From Glycomyces sambucus (lineage in GTDB: Bacteria; Actinomycetota; Actinomycetes; Mycobacteriales; Micromonosporaceae), in the NCBI RefSeq assembly GCF_900102815.1, contig NZ_FNGF01000002.1, positions 682,001 through 746,000 on the forward strand: DNA of 64,000 nt. The letters run 5' to 3'. This document shows, one piece after another, positions 5,447-49,877 of this stretch. Numbering within the stretch: the first letter of the stretch is position 1; every line of letters begins with the position of its first letter. The notes under the pieces are model-generated. The model did no database searches, was not told the DNA's origin, and saw nothing but the letters and a program-made list of their open reading frames with translations. Both the position numbers and the translations under genes were made by a program.

Positions 5447-6754
5447 CTAGGCGCGCCGCCGCAGGACCGCGAAGGCGAGTGCGGCCGAGGCGAGTTCGCC
5501 CGCGAGGAGCCCGATCCACACGCCCGTGGTCCCGGCCGTCGCGCCGATGAGGACCGCGGGGACCTTGACGGCGACGATCGTGCCAACAGAGACCAGATAG
5601 GACGGCCGCGGCCGTCCGACGGCCTGGAAGTACACGGCGACCAGCGGTGCGACACCGGCGACGGCGAAGCCGATCGCTATGAGCCGCAAGGCGTCCGCGG
5701 CCTCGGGCGCGGGAGTGCCGAGAAGCGCGGTGGTCAGCGGCCCGGCGGTGAGGACGACCGCGGTCGCGGCGAGGGCGCCGTAGGCGAGGGTCGCGCGCAG
5801 GGCGAGGCGGCGCACCCGCCGGACCCGGTCGGGCCGGCCGCGGCCGGTGTTCAGGCCCGCAATGGGCTGCATGCCCATGCTGATGCCCAGGTGCGGCATG
5901 GTGGCGAAGGTCTGGACGCGCGCGCAGACCGCGTACGCGGTCACGGCGGCGACGGTGCCGAGGGTGTTGTTCACGACGGCCGTGAGCAGCACCGCGCCGA
6001 GCCCGGCGAGCATCGACGGCGAGCCGACCGCGAGGAGTTCGCGGACGGTGGCCCGGTCGGGTCGCAGGTGCGCGGCGCCGATCCGGTACGGGCGGTCCTT
6101 GCGCGCGAAGAAGAACCACAGGCTCAGCGCGCTCGAGAACGCCTGCCCGCCGACCGCGCCGAGGGCCGCGCCGCGCACGCCCATGCCGAGGCCGAAGATC
6201 AGGAGCGGGTCGAGGACGATCTGGACCAGGACCGGGCCGACCCACAGCAGCATCGCGAACCGCATCCGCCCCTCGGCGCGGACCAGGGCCGAGAAGCCCG
6301 TGGCCACGAGCGTCGAAGCGAGGATGACCACGGCGTAGTCGCGGGCATGGCCGCGCATGGCGCCCTCGGCGCCCAGGGCGGTCAGGAGCGGTTCGAGCGC
6401 GGCGAGCCCGATGGCGCCGAACGCGATCGCGCCGGCCCAGAACACGACGAACGTGTTCCCCGCGGCGCGCGCGGCCCCGTCGGTGTCGCCGGCGCCGAGG
6501 CGCCGGGAGACGAGCGAGGCCCCGCCCGCGCCCACGGTGGTCGACAGCGCCCCCAGGGCGAGCATGACGGGCGCGACGAGGTTGACCGCGCCCATCGCGG
6601 TCGGGCCGACGCCGTGGGCGACGAACCAGGCGTTGGTGAGCGCGTAGACCCCGTAGACCCCGACCGACATGGTCGCCTGCGCCGAGCCCTGCCACAGCAG
6701 GCGCCCGACCGGGCGGGCCGCCAGCGCCTCGACGCCTTCGGGGTGCCCGGTCAC
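5447..6754 (-). CDS. MATE-family efflux transporter
   Basis: The 435-residue protein has about twelve membrane helices in two related halves and is a MATE (NorM-like) exporter of drugs or cationic metabolites driven by an H+ or Na+ gradient. Family features include AMGAVNLVAPVML in the first half, GQAFSSALSLWFFF near the middle and GISMGMQPIAGLNTGRGR at the start of the second half. GTG at 6754 is chosen because it overlaps the TGA of the upstream phosphotransferase (GTGA) and fits the family N-terminus; the longer open frame to 7090 lies inside that gene. Coupling to a phosphotransferase suggests a small resistance or detoxification operon. The substrate is unknown. Confidence 0.88.
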   Translation of the reverse strand: MTGHPEGVEALAARPVGRLLWQGSAQATMSVGVYGVYALTNAWFVAHGVGPTAMGAVNLVAPVMLALGALSTTVGAGGASLVSRRLGAGDTDGAARAAGNTFVVFWAGAIAFGAIGLAALEPLLTALGAEGAMRGHARDYAVVILASTLVATGFSALVRAEGRMRFAMLLWVGPVLVQIVLDPLLIFGLGMGVRGAALGAVGGQAFSSALSLWFFFARKDRPYRIGAAHLRPDRATVRELLAVGSPSMLAGLGAVLLTAVVNNTLGTVAAVTAYAVCARVQTFATMPHLGISMGMQPIAGLNTGRGRPDRVRRVRRLALRATLAYGALAATAVVLTAGPLTTALLGTPAPEAADALRLIAIGFAVAGVAPLVAVYFQAVGRPRPSYLVSVGTIVAVKVPAVLIGATAGTTGVWIGLLAGELASAALAFAVLRRRA

Positions 6755-45716: not shown

Positions 45717-45740
45717 GGCCGGGACCCGAGGGTCCCGGCC
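45717..45740. terminator. Bidirectional hairpin between the response regulator and the mini-ORF/MFS unit
   Basis: GGCCGGGACC (45717-45726) and its complement (45731-45740) form a 10-bp stem with the loop CGAG. It ends the sensor operon on the plus strand and lies 19 bases beyond the stop of the 11-codon ORF on the minus strand. Confidence 0.7.
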
Positions 45741-45759: not shown

Positions 45760-45795
45760 TTACGGCCAGCTGGTGTCCTTGTGGTTGTTCGTCAT
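45760..45795 (-). CDS. 11-codon peptide ORF at the end of the MFS transcript
   Basis: An ORF too short for usual gene callers encodes MTNNHKDTSWP. Its ATG is preceded by GGGAGGAGGAGCC, an excellent ribosome-binding site, and starts 13 bases after the stop of the MFS exporter gene. A hairpin terminator begins 19 bases after its TAA, so it should lie on the same mRNA as the exporter. The peptide is hydrophilic apart from a Trp-Pro end and has no signal sequence. It could be a signalling or ribosomally made, modified peptide exported by the MFS protein, or an accidental ORF. I know of no described family that it matches. Confidence 0.45.
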   Translation of the reverse strand: MTNNHKDTSWP

Positions 45796-45808
45796 GGCTC
45801 CTCCTCCC

Positions 45809-47062
45809 TCAAGTTCGACTCGGTTCTGGACGGTCTTCGGCCGGGGTCGGATCGGTCCGCGTCGCACCGGTTCCGATGAGTCCGAACGCAAGGGCGACGA
45901 CGACGGCGCCGAGCGATCCGGCGGCGCCGCACACCGCGATGGCCGTCGAGGGCGCCAACGCCTCGGCGAGCACGCCGGCGGTCGCCATCCCGAGTCCCTG
46001 GGCGGTCTGGAGGCCCGCGGCGGCGAAGCCGACGGCGCGGGCGCGCATCCCGTCGGGCACCAGCTGCACGAACCTGACCTGCGCGAGGACGAGGTAGCTC
46101 GACGCCAGGCCCGAGAGGGCCCAGAGCAGGACCGTGACCGGGAGTGGCGGCGCGAGGAGCGTGGCGGACAGCGGGAGTCCGGCGGCGAACGCGAGCGGCA
46201 CCGTCAAGCGCCGACGCAGGTCCGCGCCGAGCCGGGCGACCAGCAGCGCGCCGATCACCATGCCCACCACGTCGGCGGCCATGAGCAGGCCGACGGCGGC
46301 CTCGCCCGCGCCGATCTCGGCCGCGTACGGCGCGGCCACCGCCTCGGGGACGACGAACAGCCCGAACGTCCACACCAGTGCGGCCAGTCCCATCAGGCGC
46401 CGGTCCCCCGCCACGAGTTTGATCCCGGCGAGCGCGAACCCCCTTGCGGCCGTAGACGTCCCGTCCGTCTCGGGCAGGTGGGGGCGCAGGCCCAGGCGCA
46501 GAAGCGCGGCCGAGGCGAGGAAGGTGAGCGCGTCGATCGCGAGCACCAGGTGCGGGCTGCCGGTAGCCGCCACGACGACCCCGCCGAGGGCGAACCCGAC
46601 GATCTGCGCGATGCCGTCGGTGGAGCTGCTGATGCTCATGCCGACCTGATAGCGGCCGTCCGGCAGCACTCTGGGGAGGGTCGCGACGCGGGCGGCGGAG
46701 AACAGCGGGTCGGGGCAGGAGGCGGCGACCACGAGGACCGCGAGCAGCGGCAGCGGCACGGCCGGGATCGCCATGAGCCCGATGAGGCCCGCCCGCAGGA
46801 CCTCGACCGTCCACATCACCGTGCGGCGCGAGTACCGGTCCGCGAGGCCGGCCAGGAGCGGGGCGGTGAGCAGCGGGGGCAGATACGTCGAGGCGTACAC
46901 GAGCGCGGTCAGGGCCGCCGACGAGGTGCCGTCGAAGACCAGCAGCGCCAGAGCGACGCGGGCGAACTGGTCGCCGATGCGCGACTGGGTCTGGGCGATC
47001 CAGAGCACCCGGAACTCGCGGACGGAGAACACGTCGCGGAACCTGGCGGCCTGCTCGTTCAT
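45809..47062 (-). CDS. MFS exporter (MFS_3/EntS-like)
   Basis: The 417-residue protein has about twelve helices and the pattern of EntS/MFS_3-type exporters: a short N-terminus FRDVFSVREFRVLWIAQTQS, then SRIGDQFARVALALLVFDGT, and GLADRYSRRTVMWTVEVLRA at the loop between helices 2 and 3. Relatives export siderophores, macrolides and other compounds. ATG 47062 has GAGGAG just upstream; the frame open to 47470 enters the divergent gene and is rejected. It is transcribed away from the STAND regulator at 47208 and is followed by the 11-codon ORF. The substrate is unknown. Confidence 0.85.
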   Translation of the reverse strand: MNEQAARFRDVFSVREFRVLWIAQTQSRIGDQFARVALALLVFDGTSSAALTALVYASTYLPPLLTAPLLAGLADRYSRRTVMWTVEVLRAGLIGLMAIPAVPLPLLAVLVVAASCPDPLFSAARVATLPRVLPDGRYQVGMSISSSTDGIAQIVGFALGGVVVAATGSPHLVLAIDALTFLASAALLRLGLRPHLPETDGTSTAARGFALAGIKLVAGDRRLMGLAALVWTFGLFVVPEAVAAPYAAEIGAGEAAVGLLMAADVVGMVIGALLVARLGADLRRRLTVPLAFAAGLPLSATLLAPPLPVTVLLWALSGLASSYLVLAQVRFVQLVPDGMRARAVGFAAAGLQTAQGLGMATAGVLAEALAPSTAIAVCGAAGSLGAVVVALAFGLIGTGATRTDPTPAEDRPEPSRT

Positions 47063-47207
47063 GCGTCTCCTCTGGATCGTCCCGGTCCGCAGGGGGGAGC
47101 GGACTGCGCCATTGAATCCGATGTGCGCGTTGAGGAGTAGAGTCCATTGAACTTCGTTGAACCCGTGCTCGGCGCACCGGCGCCCACCCTTACGGAGGCA
47201 CCGTTCC

Positions 47208-49727
47208 GTGACCGCGAGTCCGCCCCCCGGCACCGTCGCCAGACTCGCCGCCTGGCTTGCCCTGCACCTCAACGAGACCGGCCGGTCCGTGGCCGAGGTC
47301 GCCCGTGAGCTGGGCGTGGGAGAGGAGACGGTGCGGGCCTGGCTCGCCGGCCGCCGGGCCGGGGACGACGGCGAGTTCGCGCACCTCGACTCCCCAGTGC
47401 GACTCGGCCGGTGGCTGCGGGCCCGCATCGCCGACTCCGGCTGCACCGTCAGGGAAATCGCGGAGTCCACTGAGGATGTCAGCCGGGTGACGATCTACTA
47501 CTGGCTCAAGGGCGAGCACCTCCCCCGGCCTCCGGCCGGAGACGAGCCCGATCGTTTCGACCTGCTCCTGAGCAACCCCCGCCTGGGACTGGACCTGCGC
47601 CAGCGCGTCCAGCTCGACGAGGTCCGACGCCGCCTGACCGGCACCTCCCTCACCGCTCCCCCGCCCTCCGACGACTGGCCGGCCCGCACGCTGCCCGCCG
47701 ACAACCGGGCCTTCACCGGCCGGAACGAGGAGCTGCGCCGCCTCGACCGGCTGCTGCGCGAGCACCACCGCGGCCGGGCCGTCGTCATCTCGGCGCTCAC
47801 CGGCATCGGCGGAGTGGGCAAGACCGCGCTCGCGGTCCACTGGGCCCGCAGCCGGGCCGTGCGGGCGCGGTTCCCCGACGGCTGCCTGTACCTCAACCTC
47901 AACGGCTTCGCCGACGTGCCGCCCACCGACCCGGAGCAGGCGCTGACCAGGCTGCTGGAGCAGCTGGGCGTCGACCCGAAGGGCGTATCCGGCACTCCGG
48001 ACGCACTCGCCGCGCAGTACCGGGAAGCGCTCAAGGGCCGGCGGCTGCTCATCGTCCTCGACAACGCCCACGCCGAGCCGCAGGTCCGCCCGCTCCTGCC
48101 CGACGAACCGGAATGCCTGGTGGTCGTCACCAGCCGCAACCGGCTCGGCGGCCTGCGCGCCACCCATCCGGGCATCGCGGACCTGGCACTGGACACCCTC
48201 ACCGCCGCCGAGGCGGCGTCACTGGTGCGAAGCCTCCTGGGGCGCCCGGTCGCCAAGGGCGCCGGAGACGGCGAGATCGCGGCCTTCGCCGCGGCCTGCG
48301 GTCGCCTGCCCCTCGCGATCCACATCGCCGCGGCTAACTACCTCACGCACCATGTGGACTCGTCCTCGATCGGCGAGTACACCCGCCTGCTGGCAGACGA
48401 CCGGCTCGGCCGCCTGGCCGCAGGTCCGACCGACCCCTCGACCTCGGTCGCCGCGGTCATGGACGCGTCCTACCGGCGCCTCACGGCGCCGGCCCGGCGG
48501 CTGTACCGGCTGCTCGGCCTGCACCCGGGACCGGACGTGTCCGCCGCGCTCGCCGGCAGCCTCGCCGGACTCGACGCCACCGAGGTGCGGTCCGCGCTGC
48601 TGGAGCTGACCCGGGCCAACCTCCTCGCCGAGGACGCCCGGGGCCGGTTCTCCCTCCACGACCTCCTGCGCGACCACGCCGCCGGGATCACGCGGCGCAC
48701 CGACTCCGACGTCGAGCGCCGCAAGGCGATGCGACGACTGCTCGACCACTACGTCCACACCGCGTACCCCGCCGCGCTCTTGCTGCAGCAGAGCATGCAC
48801 GAGCTCGCGGTCCCGCTCGCCGAGCCGAGCCCGGGTGCCGCCCCGGAGACCTTCACCGACCGGGACGCGGCGCTGGCGTGGTTCGACGCGGAGCACCTGG
48901 GGATGACCGCCACCGCGGCCGGCCGGCCCCCCGGCGAGTTCGACGCCCTGGTCTGGCAGGCGGCATGGGCGCTCTACGGGTTCTCCCGCGTCCGCGGCCT
49001 GCTGCGCGACCAGGCCGCGCTCAAGTACGCCGCGCTGGAGGCGGCGGAGCGGATGGGCGAGCCCGCGGCGCAGGCGCATGTGCACCGCATGCTGTCGTGG
49101 AGCGACACCGGGCTCGGCCGGTTCGAGGAGAGCCGCGCGCATCTGGTGCGGGCCCTGGAGCTGTCGGGCCGGGCGGAGGACCCGGTGGGGCAGGCCTCGA
49201 CCTACAGCAGCCTGGCCGGTCTCGCCGGACTGCAGGGACGCTACGCGGAGGCACGCGACCACTCCCGGCGCTTCCTGGAGCTGTTCGAGGCCGCAGGGAG
49301 CCGGATCGGGGTGGCCCGCGGACTGCTCACGCTCGGCTTCTACGAGGCGCAGGTCGGCGAGTACACCGAAGCCCTCGGCCACTGCGAGCAGTCGCTGGAA
49401 GTGTGCCAGGAGCTGGAACCCGGCTTCCGCGACACGCTGGAGGCCGACATCTGGAGCAGTCTCGGGCTCGTCCACGGGAGGCTCGGCGACCACGGGCGGG
49501 CGCGTTCCTTCTACCTCCGCACGCTCGAACGCAACCGGGAGCTCGGCGAGCACCTGAAAGTCGGCGAGACGCTCGCGGCCCTGGGCGACCTCCACCACTC
49601 CGCGGGCGACCGCGACGCCGCCCGCACCGCCTGGCGGGAGGCCCTCGACATCCTCACCGAGCACGAGCACACCACCGCCGCCGAGGTCCGCGCCAATCTC
49701 GCGGCCCTCGACGCCGGACCGGCCTGA
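47208..49727 (+). CDS. STAND (NB-ARC) regulator with two helix-turn-helix motifs and TPR repeats
   Basis: The 839-residue protein begins with two successive helix-turn-helix-like units: VAEVARELGVGEETVRAWLA (residues 28-47) and VREIAESTEDVSRVTIYYWL (residues 81-100). The STAND ATPase follows, with P-loop LTGIGGVGKTAL (K205, T206), Walker B LLIVLDNAHAEP and sensor region CLVVVTSRNRLGG, then a winged helix (SLHDLLRDHAAGITRR). The C-terminal third is TPR repeats (LGRFEESRAHLVRALELSGR, and others). GTG 47208 has GGAGG nine bases before. TPR domains of such regulators often bind small ligands or peptides. The neighbouring exporter and peptide ORF are the likely targets. Confidence 0.87.
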   Translation: MTASPPPGTVARLAAWLALHLNETGRSVAEVARELGVGEETVRAWLAGRRAGDDGEFAHLDSPVRLGRWLRARIADSGCTVREIAESTEDVSRVTIYYWLKGEHLPRPPAGDEPDRFDLLLSNPRLGLDLRQRVQLDEVRRRLTGTSLTAPPPSDDWPARTLPADNRAFTGRNEELRRLDRLLREHHRGRAVVISALTGIGGVGKTALAVHWARSRAVRARFPDGCLYLNLNGFADVPPTDPEQALTRLLEQLGVDPKGVSGTPDALAAQYREALKGRRLLIVLDNAHAEPQVRPLLPDEPECLVVVTSRNRLGGLRATHPGIADLALDTLTAAEAASLVRSLLGRPVAKGAGDGEIAAFAAACGRLPLAIHIAAANYLTHHVDSSSIGEYTRLLADDRLGRLAAGPTDPSTSVAAVMDASYRRLTAPARRLYRLLGLHPGPDVSAALAGSLAGLDATEVRSALLELTRANLLAEDARGRFSLHDLLRDHAAGITRRTDSDVERRKAMRRLLDHYVHTAYPAALLLQQSMHELAVPLAEPSPGAAPETFTDRDAALAWFDAEHLGMTATAAGRPPGEFDALVWQAAWALYGFSRVRGLLRDQAALKYAALEAAERMGEPAAQAHVHRMLSWSDTGLGRFEESRAHLVRALELSGRAEDPVGQASTYSSLAGLAGLQGRYAEARDHSRRFLELFEAAGSRIGVARGLLTLGFYEAQVGEYTEALGHCEQSLEVCQELEPGFRDTLEADIWSSLGLVHGRLGDHGRARSFYLRTLERNRELGEHLKVGETLAALGDLHHSAGDRDAARTAWREALDILTEHEHTTAAEVRANLAALDAGPA

Positions 49728-49742
49728 CGTCCGGACCCGCTC

Positions 49743-49854
49743 GGCGGCGCATCCTTTCGACCGCGCATCCTCTCGAGTGCGCACTCTCTTGACTGCGCAT
49801 TCTCTTGACCAGGGATCCCCTCGACCGCGAATCCCCTTGACCGCGAATCCCCTT
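49743..49854. repeat. Seven 16-bp tandem units upstream of the phosphotransferase
   Basis: Units of exactly 16 bp start at 49743, 49759, 49775, 49791, 49807, 49823 and 49839. The last two are identical (GACCGCGAATCCCCTT). The array fills the gap between the STAND gene and the phosphotransferase start, ending 23 bases before the ATG. It has the same period as the array at 9113-9208 but a different unit. Confidence 0.88.
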
Positions 49855-49877
49855 GACGGTGCCGTGAGGATGGTGGG

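Follow-up and report, generated by a model that had tools for sequence, protein, structure and literature searches.

The closest known system to the one reported here is the leaderless communication peptide (LCP) class of Firmicutes, represented by SIP-RopB. In this class, an ultra-small open reading frame (ORF; 24 bp for SIP) directly encodes the mature signal, carries no secretion signal and adjoins the gene of a tetratricopeptide repeat (TPR) receptor, and the mechanisms of export and import are given as unknown at publication (PMC10518010). Genetically encoded oligopeptides are considered the Firmicute way of signalling, actinomycete signals being typically small molecules made by enzymes (PMC10075063). 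Very short peptide genes are also known from the biarylitides, for which the 18-bp bytA gene encodes a five-residue precursor with a P450 partner and a required Tyr-3 (PMC13417212). Here we have analysed an ultra-short ORF encoding MTNNHKDTSWP in a 64,000-nucleotide stretch of Glycomyces sambucus (contig NZ_FNGF01000002.1, positions 682,001 to 746,000 of the forward strand; the whole stretch is termed the window and its first letter is position 1), where the ORF lies beside the genes for a major facilitator superfamily (MFS) exporter and a divergent STAND-TPR regulator. We show that this gene belongs to a widespread, apparently undescribed actinomycete family of tryptophan-ending peptide genes.

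The peptide gene and its family

The peptide gene reads ATG ACG AAC AAC CAC AAG GAC ACC AGC TGG CCG TAA (45795-45760, minus strand) and starts exactly 13 bases past the exporter stop codon (TGA, 45811-45809, minus strand). With a Shine-Dalgarno (SD) duplex of -13.7 kcal/mol, it confirms the 11-codon ORF with a near-ideal ribosome-binding site that a first-pass annotation had described at this distance from the exporter. No second ATG- or GTG-led short ORF with an SD duplex of -8 or lower was found between 45650 and 47300. SD-led ORFs with an [RK][DNEGS]xxW core near their end number two in the 64-kb window, the second being a low-scoring GTG ORF; because such ORFs are so few and kindred ORFs adjoin exporter homologues in many genera, the MTNNHKDTSWP ORF stands above chance. 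No further ORF separates it from an inverted repeat 20 bases past its stop codon. The same annotation had placed the ORF just before a bidirectional terminator. The 11-bp repeat is perfect but lacks a T-run, and a terminator scan lists no terminator there; a bidirectional terminator is a plausible identity for this repeat.

Ultra-short ORFs led by strong SD sites adjoin relatives of the exporter in Glycomyces, Nonomuraea, Jiangella, Kribbella, Pseudonocardia, Amycolatopsis, Saccharothrix and Kutzneria. The family peptides have 5-36 residues (mostly 5-19, with half of the family at 5-8), are encoded by genes of about 18-110 bp, of which most are shorter than 60 bp, and are hydrophilic, with a median grand average of hydropathy (GRAVY) of -1.9. 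An [RK][DNEGS]xxW core, which the KDTSW of the window fits, is present in 47 of the 68 distinct peptides, and the positions before the final W are mostly R, D/N, N/K/S and D/N/T. The ORFs are arranged singly, in tandem arrays of up to 8 separate ORFs (L108) or as in-frame repeats. Thus MRDNTWT of Jiangella ureilytica is encoded by eight separate tandem copies, and the cores KDTSWG (x4), QRDSAWR (x3) and RDNNW (x2) recur in the same reading frame every 5 to 7 residues. Other peptides encoded beside exporters include MSKDWN (x5), MQNNDW, MRGKDW, MRGQNW, MRENTWRENTWK and the MNNWSW type (x5).

Linkage of these ORFs to the exporter was assessed in 80 named loci obtained by exporter alignment, the test set being the 68 loci outside Glycomyces (one of them a second copy, L032/L090). 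A tryptophan within the last three residues had been noted before the 80 loci were retrieved, and this pre-set criterion was matched by 98 of 153 ORFs near exporters versus 36 of 197 elsewhere (p 2e-18). The final regular expression (SD-led, 4-20 aa, W-end) was tuned following an initial inspection of these loci; it matched at 39/68 exporter 3' ends versus 13/382 other gene ends of the same loci (Fisher p about 1e-26), and at about one of 68 loci in dinucleotide shuffles. These figures are conservative because several of the matches elsewhere are further family members, namely Saccharothrix MRDKIW arrays and extra Pseudonocardia peptides. The bare SD-MRxxxW* pattern gave 39 class-wide matches versus about 28 in a reversed control, which is about chance, and is therefore not diagnostic; it is linkage and core that are.

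The pattern of substitution points to translation. Variable columns at codon positions 1/2/3 were distributed as 2/6/14 within arrays (binomial p 0.0035) and as 1/0/7 between orthologues. Array copies keep the peptide, their ATG and GTG starts and TGA and TAG stops interchange, and the spacers have mostly diverged. On these sequence grounds it is very probable that the translated peptide family is real. A known RNA element was rejected, as Rfam returned no match in five loci, and searches of the open-licence literature with exact peptide strings and by topic found no description of these peptides.

Regulators, sensors and related loci

Within Glycomyces, the check that the first-pass annotation had proposed, a search for a conserved short ORF near the same exporter-regulator pair, gave a clearly positive answer: the ORF, its ribosome-binding site and a KDTSW-like end are conserved, as in G. 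artemisiae, where MNHMQKDTSWGKDTSWGKDTSWGKDITWGTR lies beside this pair. The G. sambucus genome itself contains an exporter paralogue at 67%, preceded by a short ORF, MRDREYRREDDWQ, and followed by another, MRDREYRGNKDWRQAPSEW, and a same-strand paralogous regulator. Three ORFs (MLRDRDLRARRDCDWN, MSRDRDLRAQRDCSWQ and MGRDRDMRCPNEW) occur at the exporter locus of G. tenuis, and MRDNEPRRDRIWN and others accompany further nearest relatives of the exporter. All of these ORFs have strong SD sites, and at the nearest-relative loci no protein family apart from those of the exporter and of the STAND regulator is widely shared. Locus L066 of G. dulcitolivorans is syntenic with the window (the same sCache kinase is present) and lacks the exporter, and retains MTNNVNGQRDSAWRQRDSAWKQRDSAWR divergent from the orthologous regulator; retention of both without the exporter links the peptide to the regulator. 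Peptide-regulator pairs also occur at L067 and L068. A further exporter of this clade is present elsewhere in G. dulcitolivorans (L025) and could act in trans.

Across 22 Glycomyces genomes, MRDREY-coding DNA gave eight matches versus none for the reversed pattern; seven of the eight are at exporter and/or double-helix-turn-helix STAND (dHTH-STAND) loci, the eighth being an orphan. The MRDREYRHPDARRDSPWD ORF at L194:6924-6980 (minus strand) is an orphan: it has a strong SD, and no exporter or STAND homologue is present in 14 kb of sequence. Past the exporter of L024, a MRGTVRERGPTGPRSTSW... ORF (6425-6562, minus strand) resembles a decayed or frame-shifted family member.

The conserved core of these loci is the exporter, from a single MFS clade, and the ultra-short ORF, and the partner gene varies by clade. 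A STAND-TPR regulator fills this role in the Glycomyces/Nonomuraea clade and a membrane GGDEF protein (diguanylate cyclase) in most others. The GGDEF gene follows the exporter, with the ORF array between the two, on the opposite strand. The exporter-peptide-STAND set of the first-pass annotation is thus conserved in Glycomyces but forms part of a wider picture, in which the partner elsewhere is a GGDEF protein or none is recognised. In Jiangella, the exporter and MRDRDLNRSWDWEH-type peptides of L083 and L086 have neither a STAND nor a GGDEF partner and adjoin a response regulator of the NarL type (confirmed with Pfam in L083). In Pseudonocardia, extra ultra-short ORFs (MRGHSWT x2, MRNRDWT and MRNKDWN; L102:8255-8339, L119:9686-9709 and L148:9660-9683) lie near extra GGDEF genes, as though cassettes of peptide and sensor had undergone duplication and then divergence. 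Saccharothrix loci L122, L123, L124 and L135 have MRDKIW arrays about 1.35-1.75 kb past the exporter, after a second tandem MFS_3 gene and before a GGDEF gene (the second MFS and GGDEF genes were checked in L122 and L135), so that this group may have a duplicated exporter.

The regulator of the window has the DNA-binding domain, NB-ARC domain with Walker A motif and TPR sensor of STAND-TPR transcription regulators. Pfam identified a helix-turn-helix region, NB-ARC and TPRs (TPR_12 and others), and an AlphaFold model (pLDDT 87.5) has two helix-turn-helix-like units, a STAND core and a TPR superhelix, in agreement with the divergent STAND ATPase described by the first-pass annotation. P-loop residues G199, G202, G204 and K205 are invariant, and STAND structures rank first in a Foldseek search with the model. 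VIA-align comparison of the TPR part gave Z scores of 24.4 with Rap-pheromone, 23.2 with RapF-PhrF, 21.3 with NprR-NprX and about 22 with LGN bound to linear peptides. The modelled TPR sensor is thus of a linear-peptide-binding type, with the proviso that a common fold does not show function. The nearest NCBIfam models, all far below their cut-offs, are TPR proteins of RiPP (ribosomally synthesized and post-translationally modified peptide) systems (HaaT, FxSxx) and AfsR. The direct repeats between the exporter and regulator genes (Table 1) are partly kept in three other Glycomyces loci and are a possible operator.

Table 1. Features of the peptide-exporter-regulator locus in the window
Feature	Position	Strand	Basis or remark
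Inverted repeat (11 bp, perfect), candidate bidirectional terminator	45717-45740		Between peptide stop and convergent response-regulator gene
Ultra-short ORF MTNNHKDTSWP, stop included, core KDTSW	45760-45795	minus	Sequence reading, SD duplex, family members in relatives
Ribosome-binding site GGGAGGAGGAGCC, lying between exporter stop and peptide ATG	45796-45808	minus	Sequence, SD duplex
MFS exporter, 417 aa	45809-47062	minus	MFS_1 and MFS_3 (Transmembrane secretion effector); distantly similar to EntS
Divergent promoter region, candidate operator	47063-47207		Four direct repeats [AG]TTGA at 47111, 47129, 47146, 47157
STAND-TPR regulator, 839 aa	47208-49727	plus	GTG start 47208, with TTG 47157 as an alternative
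Two N-terminal helix-turn-helix units of regulator, residues about 28-46 and 81-100	47289-47507	plus	Pfam HTH region and AlphaFold model
TPR superhelix of regulator, residues about 485-835, candidate peptide-binding domain	48660-49712	plus	AlphaFold model, VIA-align

Two further observations concern the flanks of the locus. Degenerate short tandem repeats (CTTGACCGCGAATCCC-like units) occupy 49740-49870, right past the regulator stop. The genes to the left of the peptide (sCache kinase, response regulator, DctA-like) resemble a dicarboxylate system and were set aside.

Possible roles of the peptides

We consider it fairly probable that the family encodes leaderless signal peptides that are exported by the MFS protein and read by a neighbouring sensor. 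The ribosome would make the peptide in nearly mature form and the MFS protein would export it, leading to accumulation outside the cell. In Glycomyces, the peptide would re-enter the cell and bind the TPR domain of the STAND regulator, which in the window would use the TTGA direct repeats to control the exporter-peptide operon divergent from it; in the Pseudonocardiales, Kribbella and Jiangella, it would be sensed at the membrane by a diguanylate cyclase. Gene dose is expanded by tandem ORFs or in-frame core repeats. An export-and-sense circuit had been suggested by the first-pass annotation, and conservation and peptide-regulator linkage now make this much better supported, the circuit itself being what we infer from them. 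The chances appear evenly balanced that these peptides constitute a new class of actinomycete cell-to-cell signals, which would be leaderless and mostly of 5-19 residues, with dedicated MFS export and interchangeable STAND-TPR or diguanylate cyclase sensors.

Several observations weigh against signalling by these peptides. About a quarter of the exporters in the tree (19/83) have no detected W-ORF, and some Saccharothrix exporters first scored in this way have arrays farther away. Some loci have neither a STAND nor a GGDEF partner that could be recognised, and because the partner is not constant, the exporter-peptide linkage does not single out any one receptor. Four dHTH-STAND regulators (L069-L072) have no peptide in reach, TPR domains also take ligands other than short peptides, and the third-position excess, while significant, is built on few columns.

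Alternatively, the ORFs may encode ultra-short RiPP precursors, as in the biarylitides or microcin C: an enzyme whose gene lies elsewhere would modify the peptides, for example at Trp, and the product would leave the cell as an antibiotic or other metabolite. Ultra-short RiPPs are known and multi-copy precursors have been reported (PMC13417212; PMC7680869), the conserved aromatic residue and dedicated exporter would fit, and the regulator's nearest NCBIfam models include the RiPP-system proteins named above. We nevertheless regard this as unlikely, as no enzyme family is common next to the exporters, the Tyr-3 required by biarylitide P450s is absent from the peptides, and the STAND and GGDEF partners are sensors rather than peptide-tailoring enzymes. 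A RiPP system with a local enzyme was rejected, as only the MFS, STAND and GGDEF families are widely common to the loci.

Another reading is that these are regulatory ORFs that make no useful peptide, such as leader or attenuator peptides or minigenes that titrate tRNA or ribosomes; very short ORFs that combine a strong SD and conserved Trp codons are capable of action in cis. The family ORFs, however, close the exporter operon at its 3' end or form separate convergent arrays; because they end transcription units and no gene follows on their strand, a leader or attenuator function was rejected. Conservation of the peptide through synonymous change, in-frame repetition of the core, tandem copies and diversification of the peptides by clade, as codes, also argue against action in cis, which we consider very unlikely. 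Just as improbable, in our estimation, is a peptide that is never secreted and acts inside the cell as a co-factor of exporter or regulator, for example as a ligand gating the STAND protein. Retention of peptide and regulator without an adjoining exporter in L066 and L067 would favour such a role, but exporter linkage is the most constant feature of the family and the L025 exporter of G. dulcitolivorans could serve in trans.

If the peptides do act as exported signals, peptide signalling with a co-encoded exporter would extend across several actinomycete orders and change the picture of actinomycete signals drawn in PMC10075063. It would also suggest an exit route for leaderless peptides, a step listed as unknown in the LCP work, and a membrane diguanylate cyclase would turn a peptide code into c-di-GMP. 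The genes are below the reporting size of gene callers and would be overlooked in sequenced genomes, including those of antibiotic producers. Finally, the candidate peptide-sensor pairs are open to direct synthesis and testing.

Comparison with known systems

The biarylitide genes resemble this family in being easily missed by annotation, sometimes multi-copy and in having W-containing motifs (PMC13417212), but no peptide in our catalogue has the Tyr at position 3 of the MxYxH/W-type pentapeptides, and no P450 family is common near the exporter. Microcin C, with its mccA heptapeptide and MccC export pump (PMC7680869), likewise couples an ultra-short ribosomal peptide gene to a pump. It differs in its peptide end, in the sensor partners present here and in that no enzyme family is common to our loci (the MccB adenylating enzyme itself was not searched by profile). 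AfsR and other actinomycete STAND-TPR regulators (PMC10936776) share NB-ARC and TPR domains with the window regulator, AfsR being among its nearest NCBIfam models; here, two N-terminal helix-turn-helix units replace the SARP domain, and an exporter and ultra-short peptide gene are linked to the regulator.

The window system has only part of the characteristics of the RRNPP systems (Rap, NprR, PlcR, PrgX, Rgg). As in these, a gene for a short linear peptide lies near an intracellular regulator with a TPR receptor domain, whose model gives Z scores over 20 with Rap and NprR. RRNPP propeptides have 10-100 aa, a range that includes the 11 aa of the window peptide, yet half of the family has 5-8 aa. 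No Sec-type signal is apparent in these 11 hydrophilic residues or in a family with a median GRAVY of -1.9 (SignalP was not run), and the regulator, at 839 aa with NB-ARC, exceeds the 250-500 aa of RRNPP receptors. RRNPP peptide and receptor genes adjoin each other directly; at L066 and L067 the two lie side by side in divergent orientation, and in the window the exporter intervenes. A co-encoded exporter and actinomycete hosts are further differences from RRNPP.

The LCP class is closer. An LCP is encoded in mature form by an ultra-small ORF, is secreted and taken up, and activates its receptor. The ORFs of the present family are mostly of 5-19 codons, have their own SD and leave no room for a leader, and their product may be mature as translated. 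Tandem arrays and the [RK][DN]xxW core are present here and are not described for LCPs in the part of PMC10518010 consulted. RopB is an RRNPPA regulator of the RopB/Rgg type, unlike the STAND ATPase or GGDEF partner of our loci, where an MFS exporter is encoded together with the peptide.

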